DNA of 39,183 nucleotides from a virus: the IMG/VR virus record IMGVR_UViG_3300035179_000029, positions 1-39,183 of that record. One strand, 5' to 3'. Numbering within the stretch: position 1 is the first letter of the stretch; each line of letters starts with the position of its first letter. Made by a program: the position numbers and the translations under genes. This document shows, in pieces, positions 1,511 to 37,931 of the stretch. The notes beneath the pieces were generated by a model that was not told the DNA's origin, did no database searches, and saw only the letters and a list, made by a program, of their open reading frames with translations.

Positions 1511-1740
1511 CTCCCGGCTTTCACAAGCCCCCGCAGCGGCGCTACCGCGGGCGCCGCTGGAATGGGATGGCGCCTTCCCCGGCGTCCATCGCCTCTGCGC
1601 TACCGACCACGCCGGCCCGCTGCCTTCGCTGCCGGCGGTGGTTCCCGTCCCTCGGAAAGCAAAACCGGGTTTGCCTGTCCTGCAAGAGCTCCGAGGACTG
1701 GCGCCACGCGGTCCTCGAGTATCGGGCGCACCATGCCTGA
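1507..1740 (+). CDS. Small zinc-ribbon-like protein, 77 aa
   Basis: ATGA overlap with the gene before and an 8-bp overlap with the terminase gene after. Residues about 38-60 contain two CxxC pairs (CLRC and CLSC) 15 residues apart, the spacing of a small treble-clef or zinc-ribbon fold. The N terminus is basic (PPQRRYRGRRW). Its place directly before the terminase suggests a packaging or endonuclease-accessory role, but it lacks an HNH catalytic motif. Function unknown. Confidence 0.65.
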   Translation: MTPGFHKPPQRRYRGRRWNGMAPSPASIASALPTTPARCLRCRRWFPSLGKQNRVCLSCKSSEDWRHAVLEYRAHHA

Positions 1741-3988
1741 CCGCGGCCCCACCCTCGACCCCAACAACCTTTCCGCCCGCGCGGCGGCCCGGGTCATAAA
1801 CGCGGCCTGGCCCGGGACGATCTCGCGCCAGCAGATCCAGCGGCATCTCCAGTCCGCCAAGTTCAACCTGCGTGGCGGAAAGGGCGGACTGCACCTGCTG
1901 TATTACGTCGCCTGGCTCCGGCGCCTGCTCAAGGACGGTCAGCGGCTCAGGCGCGAGCGCGATCCCCGGAGCCAGTCCCAGCGGATGCGCGAGCGCGACC
2001 GGGCCGCCCGGGACATCGGCCCGATCCCTGCGCTGAAGAATCCCGCCCGGCGGAAGTCATGCCGGGTGGATCTGCCGCGGTTCCTGAAGACCTTCATGCC
2101 CGAAAGCTTCCCCCTGCCCTGGAGCGGCGACCATCTTCATGTCCTCGCGCGGACGCAGTCGGCGCTCCTGGAGGGCGGGCTCTTCGCGGAGGCCGTCTAT
2201 CGCGGGTTCGGGAAGTCCACGCTGGCCGTGGGGGCGGCCATCTGGTGCGCCTGCTACGGCCACAAGAAATACATTCCAATCGTGAGCGCCGACAAGAAGG
2301 CGGCGGAGGACATAATCTCCGACATCCAGGCGGAGTTCGAGGAGAACGATCTGCTGCTCCAGGACTTCCCCGGCGCCTGTTGGCCGATGCGTTGCCTGGA
2401 GGGCATCTCGCACCGCTGCCGCGGCCAGATGAGCGCGGGCCGGCGGACGCAGGTCGAGATCAAAACGGACACTCTGGTCCTGCCCACGGTGGCCGAGGCG
2501 GACGGCTCGCCGGCGGTTTCCTCCGGGGTGATCCTCCGGGCCTTCGGGTTCGGCGGCCGGATCCGGGGCCTCCGCCACCGGCGGAAGGACGGGACGGTGG
2601 TCCGTCCGGACTGCGCCATCCTGGACGATCCGCAGACCGACGACTCCGCCCGGAGCCCCAGCCAGTGCGACACGCGCGAGCGGGTCATCACCGCCGCGAT
2701 CCTGGGGCTCTCGGGGCACCGGCGGGCCATGTCCGCGGTGATGCCCTGCACAGTCATACGCAAGGGCGACCTGATCGACCGGTTCCTGGACCCCGCCCGG
2801 CATCCGGAATGGCAGGGGGCCCGGCTTCCGATGGTCAAGGCCTGGCCAACAGGCCATGAGGAGTTCTGGATCCGCCGCTACGCGGTGCTCCGGAAGGCCC
2901 AGCTGACCGATGTGCAGGGCGGCCAGCAGGAGGCCCACCGGCGGGCGACGGCGCTCTATGCCGCCAACCGGGCGGCCATGGATGCCGGCGGGGCGGTTTC
3001 CTGGCCGGAGTGTGTCGGCCCGGGCGAGCTTTCGGCCTTGCAGCACGCCTACAACCTCCTGATCGACCGGGGCGATCGGGTATTCCTGGCGGAATACCAG
3101 CTCGAGCCGATGGACGAATTCGAGAGCATCGAGCCGCCGCTCGAACCCGGGGAGATCGTCCGGAAGCTGAACGGCCTGGATCGCTTCCAGGTGGAACACG
3201 GCGCCGGCGCCGTGGTGGCCTTCGTGGACCTCGGCAAGGTGACGCACATTCACTGGGATACATGCTGGTTCGCGGACGGGTTTTCCGGCGGGCTGCTCGA
3301 TCGCGGCGTCCGGCCGCTGGCCCGGACGGTCCGGGGCGGGGTGGAGGCGGCCATCTACGCCCGGCTGACGGAAGTAACCGAGCATATCTGCGGCCGGCGC
3401 TACCAGGTGCCCGGCGGCGGCGAGCTCCGCTGCTCGCTCTGCGTGGTCGACTCCGGCTGGCAATCGCGGACGGTCTATGCTTTCTGCCGGCAGAGCCCGC
3501 ACGCCGCGGTGCTCGCGCCGTCCAAAGGCATCGGCGGCGAGGTCGAGCTGCGGCCGCCGCGGCTCTGCCCCAAGCGCGACCAGGGCGACGGCTGGTATCG
3601 GGCCTGGACCCGGAGCCGGGAGGCCCGGATCCTCTACTACAACACCGACCGGTGGAAGACCTTCACGAACGAACGGCTGCGGACGGGGCTCGGGGGCCGC
3701 GGTTGCTTTAGCCTGTGGGGCAAGCGGCCGGAGGAGCACCGGGACTTCGCCGACCAGATCACCGCCGAGCGGCCGAGGAGCAAGCAGACCAAGTGGGGCG
3801 ACGTGATCGCCAAGTGGGAGTGCCTGCCCGGCCGGGAGAACCACTACTGGGACTGCCTGGTGGGCTGCCACGTGGGGGTGGCGACTTTGGGCGTGGCGCT
3901 GGACAAGGAGATCGGGGGCGGGGTGGGGCCGGAGGACAAGCCGCTGCGGCTGTCGGAGCTCCAGAAACAGAAAGCGAAGGGCGGGTGA
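1733..3988 (+). CDS. terL: Phage terminase, large subunit (packaging ATPase/nuclease)
   Basis: Drives ATP-dependent packaging of DNA into the prohead through the portal and cuts the concatemer. The ATG at 1733 overlaps the previous stop and gives 751 aa, long for the family. ATPase domain: Walker A-like RGFGKST at residues 157-163 and Walker B ILDDPQTD with Asp298-Asp299. The C-terminal RNase H-like nuclease has likely metal-binding Asp499 (AFVDLGKV), Asp573 (VVDSGW) and Asp707 (YWDCLVG). The first ~75 residues form an extra DNA-binding-like domain resembling the 68-aa protein encoded at 1027. The C terminus (KPLRLSELQ) is repeated at the start of the next gene. Upstream starts in the same frame are shadowed by the zinc-ribbon gene. 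Confidence 0.93.
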   Translation: MPDRGPTLDPNNLSARAAARVINAAWPGTISRQQIQRHLQSAKFNLRGGKGGLHLLYYVAWLRRLLKDGQRLRRERDPRSQSQRMRERDRAARDIGPIPALKNPARRKSCRVDLPRFLKTFMPESFPLPWSGDHLHVLARTQSALLEGGLFAEAVYRGFGKSTLAVGAAIWCACYGHKKYIPIVSADKKAAEDIISDIQAEFEENDLLLQDFPGACWPMRCLEGISHRCRGQMSAGRRTQVEIKTDTLVLPTVAEADGSPAVSSGVILRAFGFGGRIRGLRHRRKDGTVVRPDCAILDDPQTDDSARSPSQCDTRERVITAAILGLSGHRRAMSAVMPCTVIRKGDLIDRFLDPARHPEWQGARLPMVKAWPTGHEEFWIRRYAVLRKAQLTDVQGGQQEAHRRATALYAANRAAMDAGGAVSWPECVGPGELSALQHAYNLLIDRGDRVFLAEYQLEPMDEFESIEPPLEPGEIVRKLNGLDRFQVEHGAGAVVAFVDLGKVTHIHWDTCWFADGFSGGLLDRGVRPLARTVRGGVEAAIYARLTEVTEHICGRRYQVPGGGELRCSLCVVDSGWQSRTVYAFCRQSPHAAVLAPSKGIGGEVELRPPRLCPKRDQGDGWYRAWTRSREARILYYNTDRWKTFTNERLRTGLGGRGCFSLWGKRPEEHRDFADQITAERPRSKQTKWGDVIAKWECLPGRENHYWDCLVGCHVGVATLGVALDKEIGGGVGPEDKPLRLSELQKQKAKGG

Positions 3989-4587: not shown

Positions 4588-4827
4588 ATGGCGCTTACTG
4601 CGGCCCAGCGGGTCGAGGCTCTCAAGGAAGCCATCGACGCGAAAATATCGGGCGGCGCGGTCAAGGCCCTGACCTTTCCGGACGGCAAGAGCTTGCAGAA
4701 TATGACCCTTGAAGAGTTGGAGAAGTCGCTGGTCTTCTGGGAAGGCCGCGCGGCGGAGGACGCCGCCGCCGCCGCCTCGCCCCGCGGGCTCCGGATCAAC
4801 TCCATCCGGCTCGGGGGCACGCCATGA
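4588..4827 (+). CDS. gpW-like head-tail joining protein, 79 aa
   Basis: Small helical protein followed immediately by the portal gene, the place of gpW-type proteins in lambda-like phages. The segment VKALTFPDGKSLQNMTLEELEKSLVFWEGR matches the family pattern: a beta turn with a short G-[KR] hairpin, then a helix with LxxLExxLxxxE. In lambda, gpW plugs the portal after packaging and makes the surface for the next head protein. It overlaps the portal gene by 4 bp. Confidence 0.75.
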   Translation: MALTAAQRVEALKEAIDAKISGGAVKALTFPDGKSLQNMTLEELEKSLVFWEGRAAEDAAAAASPRGLRINSIRLGGTP

Positions 4828-6353
4828 TCAAGGCCCGGCGCCTCCCCCGCAAGGCCGCCGCCGCGGCGCGGGAGACCATCCGGCTCTCAGACCACGCCCA
4901 GCAGCTCGCGGACGCCTCGCGCTTCGACCGGCGGATCAAGAGCATCGTCCGGGCCACCTACGACGGGGCGCAGATCACGGACCGCACCGAAAACCTTTGG
5001 GCCAACGCGACCGGCCGCAGCGCCGACGCGGAGGCCACGCCGGGCGTGCGCGCCACGCTCCGGAACCGCTGCCGCTACGAGTCCCGGAACAACAGCTACT
5101 GCCGCGGCATCCTGGACACCCGGGCGATGGACACGGTCGGGCGCCTGCCGCGGCTGCAGCTCCTCGCCGGCGAGCCTGACTACACCGACCGGAAGGAGCG
5201 GGACTATCGGGAGTGGGCCCGCGAGGTCCGGCTCGGGGAGAAGCTCCGGCTGGCCATGAACCAGCGCGGGGACTCCGGCGAGGCCTTTCTCGAGATCGTC
5301 ACCGACCTGAAGCTGCGGTCCGCCGTCAAGCTGAACGTTGTTTTGATCGAGGCCGACCGGATCACGGGCCAGATGGACAGCTTCAGCAACCCGCTCTACA
5401 GCGACGGGATCCTTTACGACGAGAACGGCAACCCCGTTTCCTATGATGTGCTAGACTACCACCCGGGCGGCGGCGTCCCGCTGACCGGGTTCGGCAGTTA
5501 CCGCCGGGTGCCGGCCTCCGGGATGCTGCATTTCTTCCGGCAGACCCGCCCGGAGCAGCGGCGCGGGGTGCCCGACATCGCGCCGGCCCTGGTCCTCTTC
5601 GGGATGCTCCGGCGGTTCCGGCTGGCCACCCTGAATGCGGCCGAGACGGCGGCCGCCGTCGCCTGGATGCTGGTGTCCAAGGGCCAGCAGGTGGAGCCCG
5701 TCAATGTCGATCCCATGGACGTGATCGACCTGAGCATGGGCTCGGGCGTCACGGCGCCGAGGGGGTGGGGCATCGAGCAGATCGACTCGAAGCAGCCCGC
5801 CACAACCCACGTCGAGTTCGTCCGCTCCACGATCAACGAGGCCGCGCGCTGCGTTTCCATGCCCCTCAATGTCGCCCTGTGCGACAGTTCGCGCTACAAC
5901 TACGCCAGCGGCCGGCTTGACCACCAGACCTACTTCCGGGCCATTGGGATAGATCGATCCGAGATCGGCGACGTGATCCTCTCCCCGCTCTATCGCGCCT
6001 GGGACCGGGAGTACCGGTTCACGCCCGGCGCCGCCGTGAATCCCCAGGGAGCGGACCTGCCCGACTTCTGGGAGTGGTTCTTCGACGGCTTCGAGCACGT
6101 GGATCCGGGCAAGGAATCCGGCGCCGACGACACGCGCCTGAAGAACCTGACCGACACGCCCCAGGACATCTACGCGCGCAAGGGCCAGGACTGGCGCGCG
6201 GGCTTCAAGAAGATCGCCGAGGCCCGCGCCCTGGCCGAAGAACTGGGCATCCCCTGGCCGGAGAAGGCGGCGCCCGCCCCGGTCCCGGCCGTCGTGCCTG
6301 CCGATGACGGCGACGAACCCGCGGCGGATTCCGACAAACCGACAGCGGAATAG
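4824..6353 (+). CDS. Portal protein, lambda family
   Basis: The dodecameric portal is the DNA channel at one head vertex and the docking site for terminase and connector. The 509-aa length fits the lambda gpB family. Recognisable segments are the early RNRCRYESRNNSYCRGILDT region (residues 90-110), GDSGEAFLEIV, and IEADRI, then the clip/stem with FRQTRPEQRRGVPDIAPAL and the late YASGRLDHQTYF. The tail is Ala/Pro/Glu-rich. It starts 4 bp before the gpW-like stop and lies 9 bp before the protease-capsid gene. Confidence 0.93.
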   Translation: MIKARRLPRKAAAAARETIRLSDHAQQLADASRFDRRIKSIVRATYDGAQITDRTENLWANATGRSADAEATPGVRATLRNRCRYESRNNSYCRGILDTRAMDTVGRLPRLQLLAGEPDYTDRKERDYREWAREVRLGEKLRLAMNQRGDSGEAFLEIVTDLKLRSAVKLNVVLIEADRITGQMDSFSNPLYSDGILYDENGNPVSYDVLDYHPGGGVPLTGFGSYRRVPASGMLHFFRQTRPEQRRGVPDIAPALVLFGMLRRFRLATLNAAETAAAVAWMLVSKGQQVEPVNVDPMDVIDLSMGSGVTAPRGWGIEQIDSKQPATTHVEFVRSTINEAARCVSMPLNVALCDSSRYNYASGRLDHQTYFRAIGIDRSEIGDVILSPLYRAWDREYRFTPGAAVNPQGADLPDFWEWFFDGFEHVDPGKESGADDTRLKNLTDTPQDIYARKGQDWRAGFKKIAEARALAEELGIPWPEKAAPAPVPAVVPADDGDEPAADSDKPTAE

Positions 6354-6362
6354 GAGAACCCC

Positions 6363-8483
6363 ATGCGTCATCCCATGCTCCGTGCCAACGCCTCCGACCT
6401 GACCCGCTCCGTGCGCCTGTGCGCCGGCGCCGGCAGCATCGAGTTCGTCGAGGGTGCCGGGGCTGCCGAGGGCCAGCCGGCCAAGCTGCCCACCTTCCGA
6501 ATGAAACTCTATAGCGGCGCCCCGATGACGGTCGGCTATTACGGCCGGGTGATCCTGGACGTGGAGGGGATGGAGATCCCCGGCCAGCCGATCCCCGTCC
6601 ACCGCGACCACGACTTCGGGAAGATCGTCGGCCACGGGACCGGCTCGAAGCAGACCGGGACCGTCTACGTCGACGGCGTGCTCTCGGGGGCCAACGCGCA
6701 CACCCAGGAGGTCCGGGACAGCGCCAAGAACGGCTTCCCCTGGCAGGCCAGCATCGAGGCAGAGCCCCTCCGGGTTGAGGAAGTGAGGCCCGGGGCGGAG
6801 GCGAAGGTAAACGGGCGGTCGGTAAGCGGCCCGATCGCCGTTTTCCGCAAGTCGAGACTGAAGGGCGCGAGCTTCGTTTCGCTGGGGGCGGACCCCTCGA
6901 CGAAGGTCTCCGTCGCAGCTTCTCACAAGGAGAAGACCATGACGTTCAAAGAGTGGTTGGTGGCCAAGGGATTCAGCCCCGAGGCTCTGACGGAGGACCA
7001 GACCAAACTCCTCCAGGCGACCTACGATGCCGAGCAGGCCGCCGCCAAGAAGACCACGCCCGCCGGCGACGGGCAGCCTGCCGAGCCGGTCGCGGCCGGG
7101 GCCGAGCCCGTCAAGGCCGTCAGCGCGGCCGACGAGATCAAGGCCGAGCGGCAGCGGATCGCCGCGATCGAGGGCGCTTGCAAGGGCGACTGGAGCGTCG
7201 AGGACAAGGCCAAGGTCGAGGCCATCCGGGCGAACGGAATCGCCGCCGGCCAGGCCATCGCCGAGGTCAACGCGGAGCTCCTGAAGGTGCTCCGCGCCAG
7301 CCGGCCGGCCGCCGGCGCCCCGGCGTTCATCCGGGGCGGCTCCGGGTCGCCCGTGACCGCCCGCCTGCTGGTCGCCGCGCTGTGCATGGCGAACCACGCA
7401 AAGGTCGGGATGGACGACAAGGCCCTAGTCGCCGAGTTCGGCGAGCAGACCGTGGAGGGCGCCCGCAAGCTCTCCCGCATCCGCCTGACCGAGATCATCG
7501 CGGCCGCGGCCGAGATGGAGGGGGTCAGCCTCCCGCGGTTCGGCCGGGGCTCCGACGAGTGGATCCGCGCCGGGTTCAGCACGGTCAGCCTGCCGGGGAT
7601 TCTCTCCGACGTGGCCAACAAGACCCTGCTGCAGGCTTACAACGCGGTCCCCTCGGCCGCCCGGCGCATCTGCCGGATCGGTCAGCTCTCCGACTTCAAG
7701 ACCCACACCCGGTATCGCCTGACCGGGAACATGGTCTTCGAGAAGGTCGCTGGCGACGGCGAGCTGAAGCACGGGACGCTGGGGGAGGACGCCTACCACA
7801 TCAAGGGCGACACCTTCGGGAAGTTCTTCGCGATCACCCGCCAGGACGTGAAGAACGACGACCTCGGCGCCTTCCTGGATATCCCGCGGATGATGGGGCG
7901 CGGCTCCGCGCTGTCCATCGAGGAGCTGGTCTTCACGCTCCTGCTGGCCAACCCCGGGGCCTTCTTCGGGGTGGGGAACCGGAACATCTACGCGGCGGCG
8001 GCCGCGGCGCTCAGCGATGCCTCGCTGACCGTGATGATCGCTTTGCTCCGGAACCAGACCGACGCCAACGGGAAGCCGATCAACATCACGCCGGCGATCC
8101 TGCTGGTGCCGCCGGCCCTGAAGGACCTGGCCGACCGGCTATACGTCAGCCGGAACAACGTCGCCGGTGGGGTGGTGGTGGTGGGCGCCCCGGTGATGGT
8201 CTCCAGCGACAACATCCACGTCGGGAAATACCAGCCGGTGGACTCGCCGTACCTCAGCAACACCGGCTTCCACGCCAACGCCTCGGCGGTGGACTGGTAT
8301 CTCTTCGCCAACCCGGCGGACCTGGCTGCGTTCGAGCTGGCGTTCGTCGATGGCGTCGAGACGCCGACCATCGAGAGCGTCGGCGTGGCCCCGGACACGC
8401 TGGGGCTCGGCTTCCGCGGCTACCACGACGTGGGCGTGGCGGACATGGACCCGCGCGCGGCGGCCAAGGCCGACGTGGGCTGA
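6363..8483 (+). CDS. Prohead protease fused to major capsid protein, 706 aa
   Basis: One frame carries two head functions. Residues 1-190 look like a prohead maturation protease (VHRDHDFGKIVGHGTG, then AKNGFPWQASIEA, then KGASFVSLGADPSTKV). Residues about 190-310 are a charged, Ala/Lys/Glu-rich scaffold-like region. The rest (from about 320) is a capsid-type domain with FSTVSLPGILSDVANKTLLQAY and FFAITRQDVKNDDLGAF, resembling Mu-like or HK97-fold major head proteins. An internal ATG at 6939 with AAGGAG six bases upstream would give a 514-aa product without the protease. A hairpin follows the gene. Confidence 0.85.
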   Translation: MRHPMLRANASDLTRSVRLCAGAGSIEFVEGAGAAEGQPAKLPTFRMKLYSGAPMTVGYYGRVILDVEGMEIPGQPIPVHRDHDFGKIVGHGTGSKQTGTVYVDGVLSGANAHTQEVRDSAKNGFPWQASIEAEPLRVEEVRPGAEAKVNGRSVSGPIAVFRKSRLKGASFVSLGADPSTKVSVAASHKEKTMTFKEWLVAKGFSPEALTEDQTKLLQATYDAEQAAAKKTTPAGDGQPAEPVAAGAEPVKAVSAADEIKAERQRIAAIEGACKGDWSVEDKAKVEAIRANGIAAGQAIAEVNAELLKVLRASRPAAGAPAFIRGGSGSPVTARLLVAALCMANHAKVGMDDKALVAEFGEQTVEGARKLSRIRLTEIIAAAAEMEGVSLPRFGRGSDEWIRAGFSTVSLPGILSDVANKTLLQAYNAVPSAARRICRIGQLSDFKTHTRYRLTGNMVFEKVAGDGELKHGTLGEDAYHIKGDTFGKFFAITRQDVKNDDLGAFLDIPRMMGRGSALSIEELVFTLLLANPGAFFGVGNRNIYAAAAAALSDASLTVMIALLRNQTDANGKPINITPAILLVPPALKDLADRLYVSRNNVAGGVVVVGAPVMVSSDNIHVGKYQPVDSPYLSNTGFHANASAVDWYLFANPADLAAFELAFVDGVETPTIESVGVAPDTLGLGFRGYHDVGVADMDPRAAAKADVG
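6927..6941 (+). promoter_or_regulatory. Internal ribosome-binding site and start for the capsid part
   Basis: AAGGAG at 6927-6932 is six bases before an in-frame ATG at 6939. The following residues (MTFKEWLVAKGFSPEAL) start the scaffold-like region. A second shorter product would supply capsid protein in excess over protease. Confidence 0.55.
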
Positions 8484-8570: not shown

Positions 8571-8903
8571 ATGGTTCCTTACGTTCAGACCGGCGAGATG
8601 ATCGATTACACGCCCTCCGGCGCCGTCACCGGCGGCGACGTGGTGGTGATCGGCGAAATCGTCGCCGTGGCCAAGCACGACATCCCGGCCGGGGAGCTGG
8701 GTGCGGTGGGGATCAAGGGCGTCTTCCGGTTCCCGAAGGGGACCGGCAGCGCCTCCGCCCTGGCGGCTGGCACCAAGGTCTTCTGGGACGCCGTCAATGC
8801 GGTGGTCACCGCGACGGCCGGCGCCAACAAGTGCGCGGGCTACACGGTGAAGGCGGCCTCCGCCGACGACGACACCGTCGACGTTGACCTCTGCCGGGCC
8901 TAG
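8571..8903 (+). CDS. DUF2190-family capsid decoration/cement protein, 110 aa
   Basis: Good Shine-Dalgarno site (AAGGAG) before the ATG at 8571. The protein is rich in beta-strand-forming Gly/Val/Thr and shows the family pattern: MIDYTPSGAVTGGDVVVIGEIVAVA, then AAGTKVFWDA, then the C-terminal GYTVKAASADDDTVDVDL. DUF2190 proteins are short trimeric beta proteins thought to stabilise the capsid or form head fibres. They usually follow the major capsid gene, as here. The sugar cassette begins 20 bp later. Confidence 0.85.
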   Translation: MVPYVQTGEMIDYTPSGAVTGGDVVVIGEIVAVAKHDIPAGELGAVGIKGVFRFPKGTGSASALAAGTKVFWDAVNAVVTATAGANKCAGYTVKAASADDDTVDVDLCRA

Positions 8904-8923: not shown

Positions 8924-9571
8924 GTGGACCAGGGCTTGGCGCTCTCGGTTTGTGTCGCCCACTGCAACCGCAGTCGGGTGATCTTCCGGGGACGGCAATT
9001 CAAGCTGTTCCCCGAGTGCGTCAAGTCCCTGATCCGCGCGGCCCGTCAGGCCCGCTTGCAGATCGAAGTGGTCATCGCGGACTGGCCCGACGTGCCGCAG
9101 CTGGCCCCGCTCTCCGCCTGGCTTGCCCCGACGATAGGCCCTCTGCCTTACCGCGTGCTCCCGATGGACGGCCCCTTCAACAAGGGGCGCGGCTTGAACG
9201 CGGCGGGCGAAGCGGCCGCCTCCGACAACCTCTTTTTCCTGGACGCGGACATGATCGTCCCTGGGGCGCTCCTCACCCGGGGGCTGGCCTGGCTCTCGGC
9301 CGGCAAGGCCTGGTTTCCGGGGTTCACGGGACGGGAGGGCAACTGCCCGCGGGCGACCGGAAACCTCTTCATCCGGCGCGAGGCTTGGCGCGAATGCGGC
9401 CGGCACGTCGCCTGGGACAACCGGCGTGGCTCCGACTGGGCCTTCGCCCAGGCGATCCTCGCGCGCGGCCTTTCGGCCGAGCCCCTGGAGAAGCGCCGGC
9501 CCGTCCCCGGCTTCTCCCATATCTGGCACCCGAAGACCATCGGATGGCGGCAGCCATGCTTTACGACGTAG
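8924..9571 (+). CDS. Glycosyltransferase, GT2/galactosyltransferase-like, 215 aa
   Basis: First gene of the sugar cassette. GT-A fold signs: an N-terminal LALSVCVAHCNRS strand, FNKGRGLNAAGEAAASDN, and FLDADM with the metal-binding D107-x-D109. Later, GREGNCPRATGNLFIRREAW corresponds to the acceptor region of beta-galactosyltransferase-like enzymes. It would move a sugar from a nucleotide donor to an acceptor in the cytoplasm. No membrane segment is seen. The GTG start is preceded by only a weak site. It overlaps the next gene by 16 bp, so translation is probably coupled. Confidence 0.8.
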   Translation: MDQGLALSVCVAHCNRSRVIFRGRQFKLFPECVKSLIRAARQARLQIEVVIADWPDVPQLAPLSAWLAPTIGPLPYRVLPMDGPFNKGRGLNAAGEAAASDNLFFLDADMIVPGALLTRGLAWLSAGKAWFPGFTGREGNCPRATGNLFIRREAWRECGRHVAWDNRRGSDWAFAQAILARGLSAEPLEKRRPVPGFSHIWHPKTIGWRQPCFTT

Positions 9572-10248
9572 TCCTGCTGTCCTACCGGCGGCCGGGGAAC
9601 CTCCCGGCCTGCATCGCCGCCGTCCGGTATCAGCGGCCGGCGCCCGGCCAGGTGTATGTCTGGCACAACGCGCCCTCGAGCCAGCCTTCTCCCGGCGCGG
9701 TCAACGTGATCGCCGGGGAAAACTTCCGCTGCCGGGCGCGCCACGCCCTCGGCTTGCTGAGCACGGCTCCGGCGGTGGTTTTCCTGGACGATGACGTCCT
9801 GCTCACCGCCCCGGACGCGCTGGCCCCGCTCCTGGCCGCCCTGGAGAAGCATCCGGATTCCGTGATAGGCCCCGAGGGCCGGCGCTGCCTGGCGGTGTCC
9901 CCGACCATGTATTGGGGTGCGGACTCCCAGAAGTTCGCCCACCAGGACGGCCCGGTGTCCATCGTCAAGGGCAAGGTCCACGCCGCCCGGCAGCAGGTCC
10001 TCTGCCTGGCTTTTGCCTCCTCCGACCTGCCCGAGAGCGTCTGGACGGAGGACGATATTGTCCTCTGCGCCAGCTCCCAGGCAGTTACGGGGCAACCTTC
10101 CTGGGCAGTGGCCGGGATGCGCGGCAAATACCGCGATCTGCGGGACGATCTCGGCAATGAGAAGCGGCCGGACCACTTCGCCCGGCGGGCGGCGGCCTGC
10201 CGGTACATGGCCAGCCTCGGTTGGGATCCGCTCCTGTGGAAGCGCTAG
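9556..10248 (+). CDS. Small glycosyltransferase-like protein with DDD motif, 230 aa
   Basis: Begins with a typical GT-A opening, LYDVVLLSYRRPGNLPACIAAVRYQ, and has VVFLDDDVLLTAPDALAPLL, where the DDD stands for the donor/metal-binding DXD. A later TEDDIVLC and a C-terminal GNEKRPDHFARRAAACRYM follow. This pattern resembles GT enzymes acting on glycan or core oligosaccharides. In-frame starts exist at 9544 and 9556; I chose the second because the enzyme core begins there. It overlaps both neighbours. Confidence 0.75.
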   Translation: MLYDVVLLSYRRPGNLPACIAAVRYQRPAPGQVYVWHNAPSSQPSPGAVNVIAGENFRCRARHALGLLSTAPAVVFLDDDVLLTAPDALAPLLAALEKHPDSVIGPEGRRCLAVSPTMYWGADSQKFAHQDGPVSIVKGKVHAARQQVLCLAFASSDLPESVWTEDDIVLCASSQAVTGQPSWAVAGMRGKYRDLRDDLGNEKRPDHFARRAAACRYMASLGWDPLLWKR

Positions 10249-10850
10249 AGGCCGTCCGCGGGGCGATCCGGGCGCGCCGGTCGGTGCGCTCCGGCTTCCT
10301 GCCCCAGCCGGTGGGGCGCGAACTGCTCCTCGAGCTGGTCGGCGCCGGCGTCTGCGCGCCTTCGGGCAGCAACACGCAGTCGATCCGGTTCCTGGTGGAG
10401 TCCCGTCCGGAGGAGATCCGGCGCCTGGCGGGCTTCCGGCGGCTGCCGGGGGACATCCTGGCCGGGGCCCGGGCCCTGATCCTGGTCTTCGCGGACCGGT
10501 CGGCAGTGGACTGGACGGGGCACCGATACTCCGACCTCTGGCGGCGCCTGGCCTATCAGGATGCCGCGGCGGCCATCCAGAATATCCTGCTCCTGGCCAC
10601 GGCCGCGGGGCTCGGCTCCTGCTGGATTTCGGCCGACCTCGAGATGGAGGGCACTCCGCTTCTGGCCGGCCAGACCTGGGCGGCCGCCCTGGCTCCCTAC
10701 CGGCTGCCGGCCAGCCAGGAGATCGTGGGGATCGTCATGCTCGGCCACATCGAGGGGCCGCCGGCCGGCGACGTGACCCACCACGGCCGGCCCGTGGCCC
10801 GGCGCCCGGTCCGGGAATACATCCTGGGCTTCGACGGGGTGCGGCCGTGA
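10236..10850 (+). CDS. Nitroreductase-family flavoprotein, 204 aa
   Basis: Nitroreductase-fold enzymes bind FMN and use NAD(P)H for reduction. Signs here: RRSVR near the start (residues 14-18), AGVCAPSGSNTQSIRFLV and AAIQNILLLATAAGLGSCWI, which fit the FMN and dimer contacts, and a C-terminal EIVGIVMLGHIEG. Start GTG at 10236 overlaps the preceding gene by 13 bp. In bacterial exopolysaccharide loci, nitroreductase-like genes often sit beside polysaccharide pyruvyl transferase genes, exactly as here. The substrate is unknown; it may act on a sugar- or lipid-linked intermediate. Confidence 0.85.
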   Translation: MEALEAVRGAIRARRSVRSGFLPQPVGRELLLELVGAGVCAPSGSNTQSIRFLVESRPEEIRRLAGFRRLPGDILAGARALILVFADRSAVDWTGHRYSDLWRRLAYQDAAAAIQNILLLATAAGLGSCWISADLEMEGTPLLAGQTWAAALAPYRLPASQEIVGIVMLGHIEGPPAGDVTHHGRPVARRPVREYILGFDGVRP

Positions 10851-10852
10851 GG

Positions 10853-11671
10853 ATGCTTCCGGTCTCGCACTGGGCGCGGCTCCTGGCCTCTATGCGCGGC
10901 AAGCGCCTGGGCTACGTCCGCGGCGAGCACGGCAACACCGGAGACACGCTCCAGGAGCGGGCCTGCTTCGAACTCTTCCGACTCCAGGGGCTCAACGTGG
11001 TCTGGCTGGGGCCGGTGGCCCACGGCCGGGAGCCCTGGGACTGGGAGCCTGGCGACGGGCTCTGGAACGGCCAGCTTTCCGCTTCCACCCCGGTCGACGA
11101 GCTGCTGCTCTTCGGCGGCGGGAATATGGGGCTCCCGGGGGGGAGCGCCAGGATCCGCGCGGCGGCCGCCAGGCTGGGGCTGCCGATGACCATCCTCCCG
11201 AATTCCTGGCGGGCCACGGAGAACCTTTCCGGGCAGGTCCGCTATTGCGCCCGGGAGCGGGGCTCCATCGAGCGCTACTGCCCCAAGGCCGAGCTTTTCC
11301 CCGACATGGCCCTTAGTTTCGACTTTCCGGAGGATCACGGGGCCGCCCGGCCCCGGGTGCCCCTTGGGGTCTTCCTCCGGAACGACCGGGAGGCCAAATT
11401 CTCCGGGGATGCCGTGCCGGGGAACCAGGGCCCGCCCTTCGGCAAGGTCGGCAAGCGGGACGTGGCCGGCTACCTCGTCCTGGCGGCCGCTCATGGGGTC
11501 ATCGTGACGGACGCCCTGCATTTCGGGATCGCCGGGCTGGCGGCCGGCCGGAAGGTCTACCTGGTGCCGGGGGCCTACCACAAGAACCGCTCGATGTACG
11601 ATTCCTGGCTCCGCGATCTTGGCTGCCTCTGGGCCGACTCGCCGGCGGCGGTCCCGGAGCTCAGGCCATGA
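10853..11671 (+). CDS. Polysaccharide pyruvyl transferase family protein, 272 aa
   Basis: Members add a pyruvate ketal from phosphoenolpyruvate to sugars in surface polysaccharides. Family features: GEHGNTGDTLQ near the N terminus (residues 25-34), ELLLFGGGNMGLPGG, FLRNDRE, and VIVTDALHFGIAG, with the His of the TDxLHxxI motif, then a C-terminal SMYDSWLRDLG. The length is a little short. ATG 10853 was chosen; a GTG at 10847 is also in frame. It overlaps the next gene by 4 bp. Predicted cytosolic. Homologs can also transfer other groups, so the precise reaction is open. Confidence 0.88.
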   Translation: MLPVSHWARLLASMRGKRLGYVRGEHGNTGDTLQERACFELFRLQGLNVVWLGPVAHGREPWDWEPGDGLWNGQLSASTPVDELLLFGGGNMGLPGGSARIRAAAARLGLPMTILPNSWRATENLSGQVRYCARERGSIERYCPKAELFPDMALSFDFPEDHGAARPRVPLGVFLRNDREAKFSGDAVPGNQGPPFGKVGKRDVAGYLVLAAAHGVIVTDALHFGIAGLAAGRKVYLVPGAYHKNRSMYDSWLRDLGCLWADSPAAVPELRP

Positions 11672-12204
11672 AGCCCCGCAAGCGTCCCAGCCTGCCCCCG
11701 GTCCCGGCGTTTCCGGGCTTTCAGGGGGTATCCAAGCTCCGCCCCAGGCAATTCGAGGCCTTGGCGGGCTCCCTGGCGCAAGGGGGCCGGTTCCTGGAGG
11801 TCGGCACCCTGCACGGCGTCACCGCCGCGCGCCTGGCCAAAGCCTGCCCGGAGGCCTGGGTCGTGAGCGTGGACGTGTTCCGCGAGCTGAATCCCAACGC
11901 CTGGCTTGCGAACCGGCAACCGAATCAGTCCCTTTTCGTCGGAACCCTCCAGGAGTTCGCGCTCTATGCCCGGCCGGGGCAGTTCGATGTGGTCTGGATC
12001 GATGCGGATCACCGCTTCGAGCCCTGCCTGGCGGACCTCCGCACGGCCGGCGGGCTCCTGAAGCCCGGGGGCCGGCTCTTCGCGCACGATTACGCTGACC
12101 CGGATCGGCTTGGGGTTACTATGGCAATAGATCGCTTTTGCATCGATGCTGGAAAGGTTGTCTCCGTGCTCGCGGGCTCCCTGGTGGAGATCCGTCGGCC
12201 ATGA
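11668..12204 (+). CDS. Class I SAM-dependent methyltransferase, 178 aa
   Basis: SAM-binding motif I is FLEVGTLHG (residues 42-50), followed by VVSVDVF (motif II acidic residue) and FDVVWIDADHRFEPCLADLRTAGGLLKPGGRLFAHDY, typical of the TylF/Methyltransf_24 group that methylates sugars, small molecules or lipids. Placed between a pyruvyl transferase and a glycosyltransferase with 4-bp overlaps on both sides, it most likely methylates a sugar in the same pathway. No DNA-methyltransferase target domain is present. Confidence 0.88.
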   Translation: MKPRKRPSLPPVPAFPGFQGVSKLRPRQFEALAGSLAQGGRFLEVGTLHGVTAARLAKACPEAWVVSVDVFRELNPNAWLANRQPNQSLFVGTLQEFALYARPGQFDVVWIDADHRFEPCLADLRTAGGLLKPGGRLFAHDYADPDRLGVTMAIDRFCIDAGKVVSVLAGSLVEIRRP

Positions 12205-13925
12205 TCCCCCGGCTGATTCACTTCGTCTGGATCGGCGGGCCGCTGCCCGACTGGGCCGCGCGCAACGTAGAGGAGTTCCGGAAGGTCAACCCGGGCTTTG
12301 CGGTCAAGGTCCACGGCGAGGAGGCCATCCTCCCTGAGTTGGCCGCCGTCTGCGCCGGCGCCGCGCATCCGTCCAGCAAGGCGGACCTGGTCCGGCTCTC
12401 CGTCCTCTCGCACGAGGGCGGATGGTACTTCGACGTGGACTACTGGCCGCTACGCCCGCTCGAGGAGGCCGTTTGGGCCTGGGGCCTCGACGGGCGCCGG
12501 GTGTTTGTCTCCCGGCAGAACCACATCAAGGTGCCTCTTAATAACTGCATGATGGCCAGCGCGCCGGGCGCGGCCGGGATCGGGGAGCTGATCTCCACGG
12601 CCCAGGCGACGCCGGCGAAGGACCGCTGCTGCTACGGCCCGGACTTGCTCAGCGCGGTCTACGCCCGCAAGCCGGGGTTGTTCGCGGTGGCCGACTGGCC
12701 CTGGTTCATGCCCATGCGCCACAAGGGGGCGGCGTCCTACTGGCAGCGGGCGCTTCGCGGGGACGTGGAGCCCCTCCGCCAGGCCGAGCCGCGCACCGGG
12801 GGCCAGTTGCCGTTCGCTCTCCACCTGTGGCTGAACGGTTGCGAGGCGGAGATTCTCCAGGCCTTCAAGAAGGCGCCGGACACCCGTCCCTTCGCGCTGG
12901 TGGAGGAGTGCCCCAGCGAGCAGCCCATGAGCGGGATGGCCGAGGGCCTGCACAACTTTGGGCTGCTGGTCAGGCGCTACCACCAGGATGATGAGATGGT
13001 CCTCGAGCGGATGCCGGTCAAACCATGCCTCCTGGTGGCCTGGAACAATATCCGCCGATCGAAACTGGCTGCCTCCGCGGCCCGGCACGGGGTCCCCGCG
13101 CTCTGGTGCGAGAACGGGTTTCTTGACCGCAAGCGCTACATCCAGGTGGACCCGGAGGGCTTTCTGCACCGGTCCGGCTGGCGCCGGCTCCTCGGCAACC
13201 CGGCCCCGGTGGAGGGGGCGGAGAAACTAGCGCGGTTCTACCCGAAGGGCACTGGGCGGATCACCGCGCGCATGGGCGGCTACATCCTGGTCCTTGGCCA
13301 GGTCGCCGGCGACACGCAGATGGTCGACAGCGAACTCCAGGGGTCGATTCCGCTTCAGCGCGAGTTGATCCGCGCCCTTCCCAAGGGTGCCGCGGCCTAC
13401 TTCCGTCCCCACCCACAGGCCTCCCTGCAGCGCAAGGACCGGACCCACGTCCACCTTCCGCTACTCGACGAGCGCCAGGAGGAACGGGCCGGCTACCGGG
13501 CGACGAAGTCCGGCTCCGGTCTGGCCGATGCGCTCTCCCAGGCTTCGTTCGTAGTCACGATCAATAGCAACGCGGCAGTCGAAGCGCTTGCCGCCGGCGT
13601 CCCGGTCCTGGCCTTCGGGCCGCACCTTGGCATCGACGCTGGAGTGATCCGGCGCTGCACCGTGGCGACGCTCGCGGCAGACATCCAGGCCATGCACCGG
13701 GGCTGGTGTCCGGAGCAGGCCCGGGTCGACAACTTCCTCCGCTGGCTGGCGGCCCGGCAATGGTGCCGGGAGGAGTTCGCCAACCCGGCGGTGATGGGCC
13801 GGCTTCTGGCCGAGGCCGGCGTGACCGTCGGGGGCGGGGTGGGCTCTGGCTCTCTTCCGGGGCCAGGCCCCTCCGCTCCCGTAGCCCCGGAAGGGAAACC
13901 GGAAGAAGAGAGGGTGCGAAAATGA
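12201..13925 (+). CDS. Two-domain glycosyltransferase: DXD sugar transferase plus capsule-type domain, 574 aa
   Basis: Residues 1-240 match the Gly_transf_sug family: IPRLIHFVWIGGPLP, SSKADLVRLSVLSHEGGWYFD and DVD (Asp78, Asp80). Residues about 270-560 look like a KpsC/KpsS-type capsule (Kdo-transferase-like) domain: LWCENGFLDR, AYFRPHPQA, and VVTINSNAAVEALAAGVPVLAFG. So one chain may carry two transfer reactions. Its 4-bp overlaps place it last in the sugar cassette. The acceptor is unknown. No membrane segment is seen. Confidence 0.82.
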   Translation: MIPRLIHFVWIGGPLPDWAARNVEEFRKVNPGFAVKVHGEEAILPELAAVCAGAAHPSSKADLVRLSVLSHEGGWYFDVDYWPLRPLEEAVWAWGLDGRRVFVSRQNHIKVPLNNCMMASAPGAAGIGELISTAQATPAKDRCCYGPDLLSAVYARKPGLFAVADWPWFMPMRHKGAASYWQRALRGDVEPLRQAEPRTGGQLPFALHLWLNGCEAEILQAFKKAPDTRPFALVEECPSEQPMSGMAEGLHNFGLLVRRYHQDDEMVLERMPVKPCLLVAWNNIRRSKLAASAARHGVPALWCENGFLDRKRYIQVDPEGFLHRSGWRRLLGNPAPVEGAEKLARFYPKGTGRITARMGGYILVLGQVAGDTQMVDSELQGSIPLQRELIRALPKGAAAYFRPHPQASLQRKDRTHVHLPLLDERQEERAGYRATKSGSGLADALSQASFVVTINSNAAVEALAAGVPVLAFGPHLGIDAGVIRRCTVATLAADIQAMHRGWCPEQARVDNFLRWLAARQWCREEFANPAVMGRLLAEAGVTVGGGVGSGSLPGPGPSAPVAPEGKPEEERVRK

Positions 13926-14434
13926 AGTGTCCACAGTGCGGAAGCATGAAGCTGGTCAGCGGGGGCGATCCGATCTCCACGGGCGGGGCACTCTACTACC
14001 CCCGCAAGTGCGAGGACTGCGGCTACTTCTGGAGCGACCGTCAGCCGTTGACGGTCCTCCGGCGGGTGGTGGCCATGCCCGTTCGCGGCGTGCCGTGGAA
14101 GCCGGGGGAGAAGCTCGCGCCGGCGCCGGAAGCCGAGGAGGGCGGGAAGCCCCCGCTGCCTTTCGCCGGGGAGGACGGCGAGATCAGCCCGCCGGCCCCG
14201 GAGGAAGCTCCGGCCAACTCCGAGGAGGCCGCAGGCGAGGTGATCGTCCGGGTCGGCGAGGGCTTCGACCCCCAGAAGGTCAGCCCCGGGGACGTGATCC
14301 TCTTCCTGGACGGCAAGAAGGAGCGGAGGTTGACGGTGGTCAGCGTCGCGAAGAAGAGCGTCCTTGGCGACGTTGACGGCAAGCCCGACCGGCGGATCCC
14401 CAAGGCGAAGCTGCTGGGCCGGGTCGAGGGGTAG
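13922..14434 (+). CDS. Zinc-ribbon protein with C-terminal SH3-like domain, 170 aa
   Basis: ATGA overlap with the last sugar gene. Residues 3-6 are CPQC and 30-33 CEDC (MKCPQCGSMK, then YYPRKCEDCGYFW), a clear zinc ribbon. The middle is Pro/Glu/Ala-rich and probably disordered. The end, SPGDVILFLDGKKERRLTVVSVAKKS, resembles a small KOW/SH3-like beta barrel. It returns to the structural block after the sugar cassette. Its role is unknown; a nucleic-acid or virion-assembly partner is possible. Confidence 0.65.
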   Translation: MKCPQCGSMKLVSGGDPISTGGALYYPRKCEDCGYFWSDRQPLTVLRRVVAMPVRGVPWKPGEKLAPAPEAEEGGKPPLPFAGEDGEISPPAPEEAPANSEEAAGEVIVRVGEGFDPQKVSPGDVILFLDGKKERRLTVVSVAKKSVLGDVDGKPDRRIPKAKLLGRVEG

Positions 14435-14437
14435 CCG

Positions 14438-14788
14438 ATGGCGGATTCCCCCTTCCAAACCGCGGCCAAGGCCGCCGTGGGGGCGTTCTACACGACCGGC
14501 GGCGAGGCCGTCACCTACGCGCGGGGCTCCATCGACGTCGAACTGACCGCCGTCAGGAACCGGATCAGCGCCGAGGTGCCGGATACAGACGGCGTCTTTG
14601 CGCGCGAGGACCGGCTCGAGTTCCAGGTCCTGCAGGCGACTCTCGACCTGGGGGCCGGGCCGGTTGAACCGCAACGGGGGGACACGATCACGGACGCGGA
14701 CGGCAGGATCTACGACGTGCAGGACGATTTCGAGCCCCTGGAGCAGTCGGGCGAGTGGCAGATCCCCGTGGTGGAGGTGGACGCATGA
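14438..14788 (+). CDS. Head-tail connector/adaptor protein, 116 aa
   Basis: Length and layout suit the gpFII/head-tail adaptor family (lambda gpFII is 117 aa). The last 65 residues are beta-rich: AREDRLEFQVLQATLDLGAG, PQRGDTITDADGRIYDVQDDFEPLEQSGEWQIPVVEV, the strand-turn pattern of this family. It would bridge the portal/gpW plug and the tail terminator. It overlaps the next gene by 4 bp. Assignment rests on fold pattern and position, not on a conserved catalytic motif. Confidence 0.68.
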   Translation: MADSPFQTAAKAAVGAFYTTGGEAVTYARGSIDVELTAVRNRISAEVPDTDGVFAREDRLEFQVLQATLDLGAGPVEPQRGDTITDADGRIYDVQDDFEPLEQSGEWQIPVVEVDA

Positions 14789-30738: not shown

Positions 30739-31892
30739 CCGCCCGCGCTCTCTCCATCCAGCAGCCCTGGGCCTGGGCGATCACCGACCTGGACAAGCTG
30801 GTCGAGAACCGCTCCAGGCCCACCAACTTCCGGGGCGAGGTCTTCCTGCATGCGAGCGCCAAGGCCAGGCCGGTGGAAGACCTCGACGATTGCTGTACCA
30901 CCGACGAGGTCCACCAGGCGCTGAATGCTTGGGAACAAGGCACCATGACCCTGGGCGCCATCGTGGGCGTGGCCGAACTCTGCTACTGCGGCACTCCGCA
31001 GGAGGTCCGGGGGAATGCCGAGCTTCTCTTCTACCCCGACGAACCCCAGGACCGTTGGATCGAGGGGCCGTCCTGTTACTGCCTCGTTCGCGTGCTCACG
31101 CTCCCCGAGCCGGTCCCCTGCAAGGGCGCGCTCGGCTTTTGGAAGGTGCCTCCCGACGTGGAGGCCAAGGTAAGGAGTCAATTGGAAATGGCAAAGAAGA
31201 CGAAGGCCAGGAAGTCCGAAACGAAACCCCCCAAGAGCGAGACGCCCCCGCCCTTCAACGACACGGACCGGCCCAGGCCCGAGACGGGCGAGCCGAAGGC
31301 CAACTCTCCCGAGGATCTCGGCTTCGGCCCCCTGCCGCCGGAAGACTACTCTCCGGCGCAGCGCACTGCCTTCCGCGAGGCCTTCCGGAAGATCGCGGCC
31401 GTCGAGAAGACCCGGCTGAAGCGCCGGACGGAACTCAGCTATGCCGAGGACGATCTGAGCACGGCCAAGGACACCGTGAAGCAGCGCCAGGAAGCCGTCA
31501 AGGTCTGTGACTCAGACGTCGAGGAACTCTTCATCCACCTGCAGACCATCGATTCCGGCACCTGGGATCAGAAACTTGAATTTCCCGAGGGTGGCCACGC
31601 CTCGGGTGGAGCCGCCAAGCTGGAGACGGGCGGGGACAGCGTCCTGGGCCCCATCCCGGATGATCTGATGGAGGCCGCCCGGGAACATATCCGCAACTGC
31701 CAGGCGAAGGGCAAGGGGCTGGATGTGGTCAGCGTGAGCCTGGCGCTCTTCAGCTCGCGCAAGGCGGAGCACAAGCCCCGGTGCGAGCAGATCATCGCCG
31801 CCCTGGCCCTGGCTGGCGACATCGACCCCGACGAATCCGACGATTCCAAGACTCGCTGGCTGCCGCGGGAGAAGCCGGAAGCCGATGCCTGA
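30735..31892 (+). CDS. ASCH-domain protein with a long C-terminal extension, 385 aa
   Basis: Residues 1-150 form an ASCH domain (RALSIQQPWAWAI, LVENRSRPTNFRGEVFLHAS, CKGALGFWKVPPDVEAK), a PUA-like fold thought to bind RNA or modified nucleic acids, often found near DNA/RNA modification genes. A Lys/Pro/Glu-rich linker follows, then a helical C-terminal part. An in-frame ATG at 31188 with AAGGAG 10 bases upstream may give a separate 234-aa product. GTGA overlap with the truncated methyltransferase and 8-bp overlap with the next methyltransferase. Confidence 0.72.
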   Translation: MTARALSIQQPWAWAITDLDKLVENRSRPTNFRGEVFLHASAKARPVEDLDDCCTTDEVHQALNAWEQGTMTLGAIVGVAELCYCGTPQEVRGNAELLFYPDEPQDRWIEGPSCYCLVRVLTLPEPVPCKGALGFWKVPPDVEAKVRSQLEMAKKTKARKSETKPPKSETPPPFNDTDRPRPETGEPKANSPEDLGFGPLPPEDYSPAQRTAFREAFRKIAAVEKTRLKRRTELSYAEDDLSTAKDTVKQRQEAVKVCDSDVEELFIHLQTIDSGTWDQKLEFPEGGHASGGAAKLETGGDSVLGPIPDDLMEAAREHIRNCQAKGKGLDVVSVSLALFSSRKAEHKPRCEQIIAALALAGDIDPDESDDSKTRWLPREKPEADA

Positions 31893-32682
31893 GAAGGTCG
31901 GTCCCTTCGAACTCGGGCGCGTCCACCGGTGCGAGGCGCTGGAGGGCCTCCGACTCCTGCCGGAAGGTTCCCTCGATGCCGTGGTGACGGACCCGCCCTA
32001 TAGCAACGGCGGACAGTTCCGGGGCGACCGCACCGACGCGGCCAGCAATAAATATGTCCAGAGCGGGAGCCACGACACCTGCCGCGACGAATTCTCCGGC
32101 GACAACCGCGACCAGCGGAGCTTCATGGTTTGGGCCTCCGCCTGGATGCTGGAGGCCCTGAAGGCCTGCCGATCGGGATCCGTTCTTCTGGTCTTCTCCG
32201 ACTGGCGACAACTGCCGACCATGACCGACGCCGTCCAGTGCGGCGGCTGGGTTTGGCGCAACGTCGTTACCTGGTGGAAGCCCGGAATCCGGATGCAGCG
32301 GGGCCGGTTCTCTGCGTCGGCGGAATACATCGTCTACGCTACCAGCGGAATCCCGGCGCCAGGCGAAGCCTCCCCGCAGAACGTCCTGCCCCATGCCCCG
32401 GTGCCAGGGGAGGAAAAGAAGCACATTGCCGAGAAGCCGGTCTCACTCATGCTGGAGCTTCTCGGCGTGACCCCGCCCGGCGCCCTGATTCTCGACCCGT
32501 TCGCGGGATCCGGGACAACGGGCGTGGCCTGCCGCCACCTTGGCCGCCGGTTCCTGGGCTTCGACCTCGACGCGCGATGGTGCGAATTGGCCAACGACCG
32601 GATCGCGGCGGCCAAAGAAGGACTATCGCTGGCTGAGCTGCGCGCCGGGCAGGGCCAACTCTTCGGAGGCGACGATGCCTGA
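31885..32682 (+). CDS. DNA N4-cytosine/N6-adenine methyltransferase (beta class), 265 aa
   Basis: Catalytic motif VVTDPPYSNGG (about residue 34) lies before the SAM-binding motif ILDPFAGSGTTG (about 207), the order of beta-class DNA methyltransferases. DPPY can be adenine- or cytosine-specific, so N6-adenine or N4-cytosine. Between them lies the target-recognition part (DWRQLPTMTDAV, WRNVVTWWKPG). It would protect phage DNA from host restriction. It overlaps both neighbours by 8 bp. Confidence 0.88.
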   Translation: MPEKVGPFELGRVHRCEALEGLRLLPEGSLDAVVTDPPYSNGGQFRGDRTDAASNKYVQSGSHDTCRDEFSGDNRDQRSFMVWASAWMLEALKACRSGSVLLVFSDWRQLPTMTDAVQCGGWVWRNVVTWWKPGIRMQRGRFSASAEYIVYATSGIPAPGEASPQNVLPHAPVPGEEKKHIAEKPVSLMLELLGVTPPGALILDPFAGSGTTGVACRHLGRRFLGFDLDARWCELANDRIAAAKEGLSLAELRAGQGQLFGGDDA

Positions 32683-35203: not shown

Positions 35204-35252
35204 GACGAACTCGCGGCGGAGAGGATGGGGGGGAACCGGAGTTGAATCCTAG
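35196..35252 (+). CDS. 18-aa ORF after a strong ribosome-binding site; possible remnant
   Basis: AAGGAGGAG precedes ATG 35196, but only 18 codons follow (MAKTNSRRRGWGGTGVES). The next methyltransferase starts at TTG 35242 with a weak site, so this may be a translation-coupling leader or the stub of a replaced gene. Confidence 0.3.
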   Translation: MAKTNSRRRGWGGTGVES

Positions 35253-36624: not shown

Positions 36625-37193
36625 AGCCCCCCGACATCCTGGAAGTCCGGATACTCAACCTCCGCGACCTGAAGGGCGCGCCCTACAACCCCCGCGAGAT
36701 CACCCCGGAGGCCCTGGACGGCCTGACGGCCTCGCTCCGGCGGTTCGGCCTGGTGGAGCCGGTCGTCTGGAACAAGCGGACGCGCCGGGTGGTTGGCGGC
36801 CACCAGCGGATCGAAGCCCTGCGCCGGCTGAAAATCAAGCGGGTGCAGGCCGTGGTGGTGGATCTGTCCGAAGCCGAAGAGCGGGCCCTGAACCTCACCC
36901 TGAACAACCCGGCCACGGCCGGCCGGTTCACCGCCGCCGTCCGGGACGTGCTCGGGGAGATCGAGCTGGCCTCCCCGGAAATGTCCCGCGAGCTCAGGCT
37001 CCCCGAGATACGGGTCGACGAGATCGAAGCCCGCCGGGACCGCCCGCGCTTCTCCAAGATCGCCATTCCCAAGCCGCCCAAGAAGGTGTGGGTGTTGCTC
37101 GGTATCGACGCCAGCAAATACCAGGAGGTTGCCGGCCGGGTGGAGGAGCTCCAAAAGCTGGAGGGCATCGACGCCCATGTCAAAGTCGAATAA
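36621..37193 (+). CDS. ParB/Srx-like protein, 190 aa
   Basis: ParB-like N-terminal domain: LNLRDLKGAPYNPREIT, then LRRFGLVEPVVWNKRTRRVVGGHQRIEAL (GGHQR, a nucleotide-binding motif) and VVVDLSEAEERALNLTLNN. Phage ParB-like proteins near DNA methyltransferases may assist DNA modification or bind and cleave DNA; the CTP-type function is not shown. Ends with a helical tail. It overlaps both neighbours. Confidence 0.8.
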   Translation: MKPPDILEVRILNLRDLKGAPYNPREITPEALDGLTASLRRFGLVEPVVWNKRTRRVVGGHQRIEALRRLKIKRVQAVVVDLSEAEERALNLTLNNPATAGRFTAAVRDVLGEIELASPEMSRELRLPEIRVDEIEARRDRPRFSKIAIPKPPKKVWVLLGIDASKYQEVAGRVEELQKLEGIDAHVKVE

Positions 37194-37899: not shown

Positions 37900-37900
37900 C

Positions 37901-37914
37901 GCGGCAAAGGCCGC
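37901..37914 (+). promoter_or_regulatory. Small 5' UTR hairpin
   Basis: GCGGC-AAAG-GCCGC in the leader between the promoter and the radical SAM gene. Confidence 0.45.
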
Positions 37915-37931
37915 AAGAAAGAACGGAAGCC

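Follow-up and report, generated by a model that had tools for sequence, protein, structure and literature searches.

Results

A six-gene cassette inside a phage head operon

The DNA analysed here is a 39,183-base virus record from IMG/VR (IMGVR_UViG_3300035179_000029; hereafter the window, with coordinates counted over the whole stretch), in which six plus-strand open reading frames, overlapping or abutting one another, fill positions 8924-13925. In order, they encode a GT-A glycosyltransferase (GT1, 8924..9571; PF00535, 26.6 bits, cut-off 23.3), a second GT-A glycosyltransferase with an EXTL2/GT64-like fold (GT2, 9556..10248), a putative nitroreductase-family flavoprotein (NTR, 10221..10850; PF00881, 77.7 bits, cut-off 23.5, E 1.5e-21), a member of the polysaccharide pyruvyl transferase family (PPT, 10853..11671; PF04230, 32.2 bits, cut-off 25.3, E 1.4e-7), an S-adenosylmethionine (SAM) methyltransferase (MT, 11668..12204; PF13578, 51.9 bits, cut-off 26.3, E 1.6e-13) and the core gene, a two-domain glycosyltransferase termed biGT (12201..13925; PF12919, 34.1 bits, cut-off 23.6; PF04488, 27.8 bits, cut-off 23; PF05159, 23.2 bits, cut-off 20). 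Five of the six genes passed the curated Pfam cut-offs. The exception, GT2 (PF00535, 20.9 bits), was assigned from an AlphaFold model (mean pLDDT 72.6) that matched EXTL2, a GT64 enzyme, in Foldseek (E 1e-10, TMq about 0.69).

The genes of the window run in the order terminase, portal, fused protease-capsid protein, capsid cement (decoration) protein, the six cassette genes, a zinc-ribbon protein and a small head-tail protein. A preliminary description of this DNA had placed six tightly packed glycan-modification genes between the decoration gene and the head-tail genes; the open reading frames and the Pfam and PHROG matches confirmed this arrangement, and all the families it named were found. 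The G+C content and codon-position composition of the cassette are like those of the structural genes. The same six genes in identical order and place were found in two other viral contigs (L002 and L003), and five of the six, with the methyltransferase missing, in a third (L004), at 40-72% identity across the three. Since gene order and place recur in these contigs, the cassette is neither a chance assembly nor host contamination, the explanation that the preliminary description had set against its own.

The core enzyme biGT joins two glycosyltransferase domains

The biGT protein has 574 amino acids, and its AlphaFold model (mean pLDDT 84) has two glycosyltransferase domains and a short tail. 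Residues 1-220 resemble the GT32/GT44 group, which includes fungal Och1 and bacterial capsule enzymes and shares its fold with the glycosyltransferase domains of toxins. Both the GT-A fold and the DXD motif of the group (D78xD80) are present, and the fold matched Och1 with Z 14.3 and other glycosyltransferase domains, including those of several toxins, with Z about 17. In biGT this domain is linked to a KpsC-like one, and delivery or other toxin domains are lacking; a large glucosylating toxin of the clostridial type was considered and rejected, as there is no other toxin part besides the two glycosyltransferase domains and the short tail.

Residues 230-538 resemble KpsC and WbbB (GT107 and GT99), which are retaining beta-Kdo transferases. 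The fold matched KpsC chains over about 250 residues (Z 15-17; Foldseek E 1e-9), and the domain contains Q367xxxD371 and R402-x-H404-P405, in line with the QXXXD nucleophile motif and the HP motif described for KpsC (PMC10148158). A sequence-profile search of the PDB with this domain gave no match at E <= 0.01, including the solved KpsC and WbbB structures, while the Pfam Capsule_synth family was above its cut-off; because of the empty profile search, the link to KpsC rests on the fold, the motifs and the Pfam match. Unlike KpsC and WbbB, the domain is fused to a GT-A domain, is encoded by a phage beside a capsid gene, and is distant in sequence. From its fold and motifs, the use of CMP-Kdo by this domain is plausible.

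All 41 of the 41 full-length biGT homologs in the non-redundant set share residues D78, D80, Q367, D371, H404 and P405. For the DXD and QxxxD motifs this invariance is partly built in, because the D78xD80 and QxxxD regions, and not the RxHP region, were among the patterns by which homologs were recruited.

biGT comes and goes at one site next to the cement gene

Scans of viral contigs with single sequences were weak (one relative for PPT, none for the capsid protein), and alignment queries were productive, yielding 66 loci related to biGT, among them the 41 full-length homologs, and hundreds of relatives of the capsid protein, of which the best 80 were kept. In 33 of the 41 full-length cases, a cement gene lies upstream on the same contig with a gap of about 0 to 4 kb. 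Between the cement gene and biGT there are 0-5 exchangeable glycan genes, and biGT mostly stands directly before the next head-tail gene. In the minimal loci (L013 and L014), biGT is the sole gene between the two; it is thus the one constant gene of the locus, and the cargo varies. As for the other eight, five contigs begin too near biGT to judge or in a capsid type unlike that of the window (L020); the remaining three (L011, L039 and L040) are likewise of other capsid types, and there too the neighbours of biGT are head genes.

The comparison with related phages that the preliminary description had proposed showed an empty site in most relatives. The cement gene and the small head-tail gene, which forms the right edge of the site in the window (14438..14788, plus strand), are adjacent in 54 of the 57 biGT-negative loci with both flanks visible, so the site is a real insertion point. 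It is likewise empty in the cultured phage mEp460. In the tree built from the fused head-maturation protease and major capsid protein (6363..8483, plus strand; PHROG 4523, E 1.8e-71; PF25209), the best topology implies 10 changes between presence and absence of biGT, and counting well supported branches only leaves at least 6, from which we conclude that biGT is gained or lost repeatedly at one site. Of the phages without the cassette, L081 is closest to the window on this tree, and there the cement, zinc-ribbon-like and head-tail genes are consecutive. The zinc-ribbon gene itself (13922..14434, plus strand) flanks the cassette from outside; it has homologs in L003 and L004 and a similar sequence in L081. 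In L003, the portal and capsid proteins are foreign (29% identical), and the cement gene and cassette have been kept together (47-72%).

Full-length biGT is essentially confined to phages. Annotated phage records held none, with two matches to the N-terminal part only, and no match to PPT or GT1 and one distant match to NTR; plasmid records held none either, their matches spanning the GT32 part alone; and a collection of 84,980 genomes gave one full-length match, on a short phage-like contig. One may suppose that the genes are loosely kept cargo from bacterial polysaccharide loci with no role in the virion, the Ser60 association described below being a phylogenetic accident. The patchy distribution and varied cargo would fit this view, which the near restriction of full-length biGT to phages, its invariant catalytic motifs and the survival of the Ser60 coupling in a test of independent pairs make very unlikely.

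In phages of a different type, the KpsC-like domain forms a gene of its own among the head genes (L056:4634-5545, L072:8330-9181 and L073:2122-3384). Two of these contigs are binned as Planctomycetota, a possible hint of the host; we rejected this host assignment, since the starting genome alone matched among 294 genomes and L072 and L073 may be phage contigs placed in the wrong bin.

Two biGT-negative phages have other, unidentified genes where biGT is inserted elsewhere (L090:10400-12612 and L095:10749-13164), so this place may be an insertion hot spot in general. Other biGT-negative phages have two or three tandem copies of the cement gene (L084:9832-11203 and L083:10076-10874).

The cargo enzymes

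GT1 is among the commonest cargo genes, with 12 members in its cluster. The DDD and EDD motifs of GT2 are invariant in 4 of 4 sequences. The nearest solved relative of NTR is 3e39, and PPT is a highly conserved cargo protein (60-71% identical) with WbbZ (6x1l) as structural relative. The cargo of other loci includes glycosyltransferases, GT47-like proteins, FkbM/TylF-type and other methyltransferases, a polysaccharide deacetylase, a sugar epimerase, a YdjC protein, a radical SAM protein, and P-loop proteins called sulfotransferase-like from a P-loop-like motif, for which there was no Pfam or PDB match.

The enzyme families, pyruvyl transferases included, are shared with the Klebsiella capsule (cps) loci. 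The preliminary description had also taken nitroreductase and pyruvyl transferase genes to co-occur in exopolysaccharide loci, which is weakly supported: 79 Klebsiella capsule loci hold 35 pyruvyltransferase genes and 2 nitroreductase genes (PMC4616057). Unlike the Klebsiella loci, the cassette has no sugar-nucleotide, export, flippase or polymerase genes and lies within a phage head operon.

These features bear on the alternative that the cassette remodels a glycan of the host surface, for receptor masking or superinfection exclusion, its position among late genes serving the timing of expression. Pyruvyl transferases, KpsC-like proteins and the glycosyltransferase families found here are typical of capsule and lipopolysaccharide loci, and phage glycosyltransferases that alter the host serotype in lysogeny are known (PMC12619734). 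The Pfam scan of the cassette genes, however, gave no match to a GtrA flippase, which marks the gtrABC modules of serotype conversion, nor to an initiating transferase, Wzx or Wzy family. Remodelling of the host surface would also leave unexplained the constant position next to the cement gene, seen in 33 contigs, and the coupling to Ser60, and we regard it as unlikely.

Presence of biGT is coupled to Ser60 of the cement protein

The cement protein (8571..8903, plus strand; PF09956, E 3e-26; PHROG 122, head decoration) is the predicted glycan acceptor. In the first comparison, its residue 60 (window numbering) was Ser in 33 of 33 biGT-positive and 3 of 46 biGT-negative cases. The residue lies in a loop that reads PK-x-T-G-S-x-S-A in the positives and typically PK-A-T-G-[GAV]-G-T-A in the negatives; in the window, the loop is PK-G-T-G-S60-A-S-A and the Ser60 codon, the predicted O-glycosylation site, is AGC (8748..8750, plus strand). 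Among 4873 residue tests over the terminase large subunit (TerL), portal, capsid, cement and head-tail genes, Ser60 ranked first (p 5e-15; next 2.5e-10).

In a larger set from which near-duplicate capsids were removed, and which overlaps the first set, Ser60 was present in 28 of 29 biGT-positive phages and in 6 of 81 biGT-negative gene copies, those without it having A, G or V in an otherwise matching loop. For loops of equal length, the counts were 28/28 and 6/58. Among 11 phylogenetically independent pairs, 8.4 changed in the same direction and 0.2 in the opposite one (p between 0.004 and 0.07, median 0.008); significance was out of reach for the smaller first set, which had 5 independent pairs. 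Outside the test, three truncated contigs in which the cement gene is followed by glycan genes and the full biGT is out of view (L103, L112 and L160) have Ser60 as judged by eye. In L064, which has the GT32-type domain only, Ser60 is apparently present in a loop placed by hand and by eye, a hint that the GT32-like domain is the part linked to Ser60.

The virion could instead be glycosylated on another protein, such as the major capsid, tail tube or tail protein, Ser60 reflecting, for example, an altered packing of the cement protein. Glycans of mycobacteriophages are located on capsid and tail tube subunits (PMC12619734 and PMC12363180), and some further capsid and cement columns co-vary with biGT. 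Yet the best columns in the TerL, portal, capsid and head-tail genes reached 1.8e-9 or weaker, as against 5e-15 for Ser60, and the cassette of L003 stayed with the cement gene despite the exchange of the capsid gene, which argues for the cement protein as the partner. We hold a different acceptor in the virion to be quite unlikely.

Glycosylation of phage DNA by the cassette enzymes seems hardly credible. Some phages do have glycosyltransferases that act on DNA (cited in PMC12619734), but the genes scanned gave no match to a family for modified-base synthesis, the relatives found belong to protein- or polysaccharide-directed families, and there would be no tie to Ser60. DNA modification, already thought less likely in the preliminary description, stays so, though two N6/N4 DNA methylase genes lie elsewhere in the window (31885-32682 and 35242-36624; PF01555, E 5e-27 and 1e-37).

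Further observations were made on the cement protein. At residue 77 (8799-8801), Glu is also strongly tied to biGT (22/29 versus 3/81), though the window has Ala; the residue may make a contact close to the loop predicted to be modified. Position 85, which is enriched in Ser and Thr, held less well on independent pairs and was dropped. Its relatives in the PDB (9gay, E 2.6e-5) are too distant for placing Ser60 in a structure. Long C-terminal extensions of about 115-216 residues occur in 7 of 61 biGT-negative copies (e.g. L081:4490-5359 and L099:10124-10840) and in 1 of 34 biGT-positive ones, perhaps as another way of altering the shell surface.

Other features of the window

The terminase large subunit (1562..3988; PHROG 38, E 5.5e-33) and the portal (4824..6353; PHROG 21, E 2.8e-47) are encoded upstream on the plus strand. 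A gene with a ParB_N domain (36621-37193) follows the second DNA methylase gene, and positions 37854-38687 encode a radical SAM-like protein with a weak match to a DNA repair photolyase family and a best PHROG of unknown function (E 1e-27). The record ends (1-235 and 39001-39183) share one 60-base tandem repeat with units about 96-98% identical; the record may thus represent a nearly complete genome, either circular or circularly permuted, with its break within a gene for a repeat protein, of which the repeats alone are no proof.

Discussion

The coupling to Ser60 leads us to propose that the cassette is a phage-encoded module for virion glycosylation, in which biGT would O-glycosylate the cement protein at Ser60 and the cargo would elaborate and diversify the glycan. 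We consider this likely, and phages with the cassette probably coat their own shells in sugar. The preliminary description had left the choice between the virion and a glycan of the host surface; the position of the cassette, the repeated gain and loss at one site and the co-variation of Ser60 with biGT favour the virion, and specifically its cement protein, over the host surface. The enzyme families, folds, invariant motifs, insertion site, recurrence, cargo exchange and Ser60 coupling are established from the sequence.

In the proposed mechanism, the N-terminal GT-A domain of biGT would put the first sugar on Ser60 in the small loop of the cement protein. The C-terminal KpsC-like domain would then use the double-displacement chemistry of its family and a CMP-activated donor to add a second sugar, possibly of the Kdo type, and the exchangeable cargo, in the window GT1, GT2, PPT, MT and NTR, would extend and cap the glycan, so that the surface would differ from phage to phage. 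We infer the attachment of the sugar, its identity, the order of the two biGT domains and the purpose of the glycan. The nucleotide sugars would be supplied by the host, because the cassette is without sugar-nucleotide, flippase and polymerase genes.

Several observations weigh against this proposal. Besides the partly built-in motif invariance and the empty PDB profile search, the model leaves NTR without an explained role. Ser60 was itself found by a column scan, and the later sets overlap the first. L022 has biGT and yet a short cement loop without Ser60. Conversely, Ser60 occurs without a visible biGT in L127, L188, L168 and L173 and in a single one of the three cement genes of L084; L150 was also scored so, probably from misalignment. 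By eye, L102, with a possible glycosyltransferase after the cement gene, and L186, with a short loop, fit imperfectly.

Virion glycosylation itself is known, and it has been described for few phages so far. In three mycobacteriophages, Che8, Corndog and Myrna (Freeman et al. 2023, as cited in PMC12363180 and PMC12619734), phage-encoded glycosyltransferases are thought to modify the structural proteins of the phage itself. Phage systems of this kind have a glycosyltransferase in or near the structural genes, as is found here. The glycans of the three phages are on the C-termini of capsid and tail tube proteins, whereas the acceptor predicted here is the cement protein, and the locus here differs in its GT32/GT44-KpsC fusion as core enzyme and in its variable decorating cargo. 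A search of the open-licence literature, which cannot show absence, returned no report of the fusion enzyme, the locus or a cement-protein acceptor, and the fusion architecture, the locus and the predicted acceptor appear to be new.

More tentatively, the locus may be a capsid 'glycotype' locus of a widespread group of uncultivated tailed phages, in which the phage-specific biGT builds a core on a dedicated cement serine, possibly with Kdo from a precursor common in bacteria, and exchange of the cargo switches the sugar. If so, frequent cargo exchange at this one site would alter the surface sugar of the virion much as serotype switching does in bacterial capsules. A modular locus of this kind would suggest a common trait among uncultivated phages, with one predicted acceptor residue that could be tested with two genes, and it would raise the question of what purpose glycans on the shell serve for phages in the environment.

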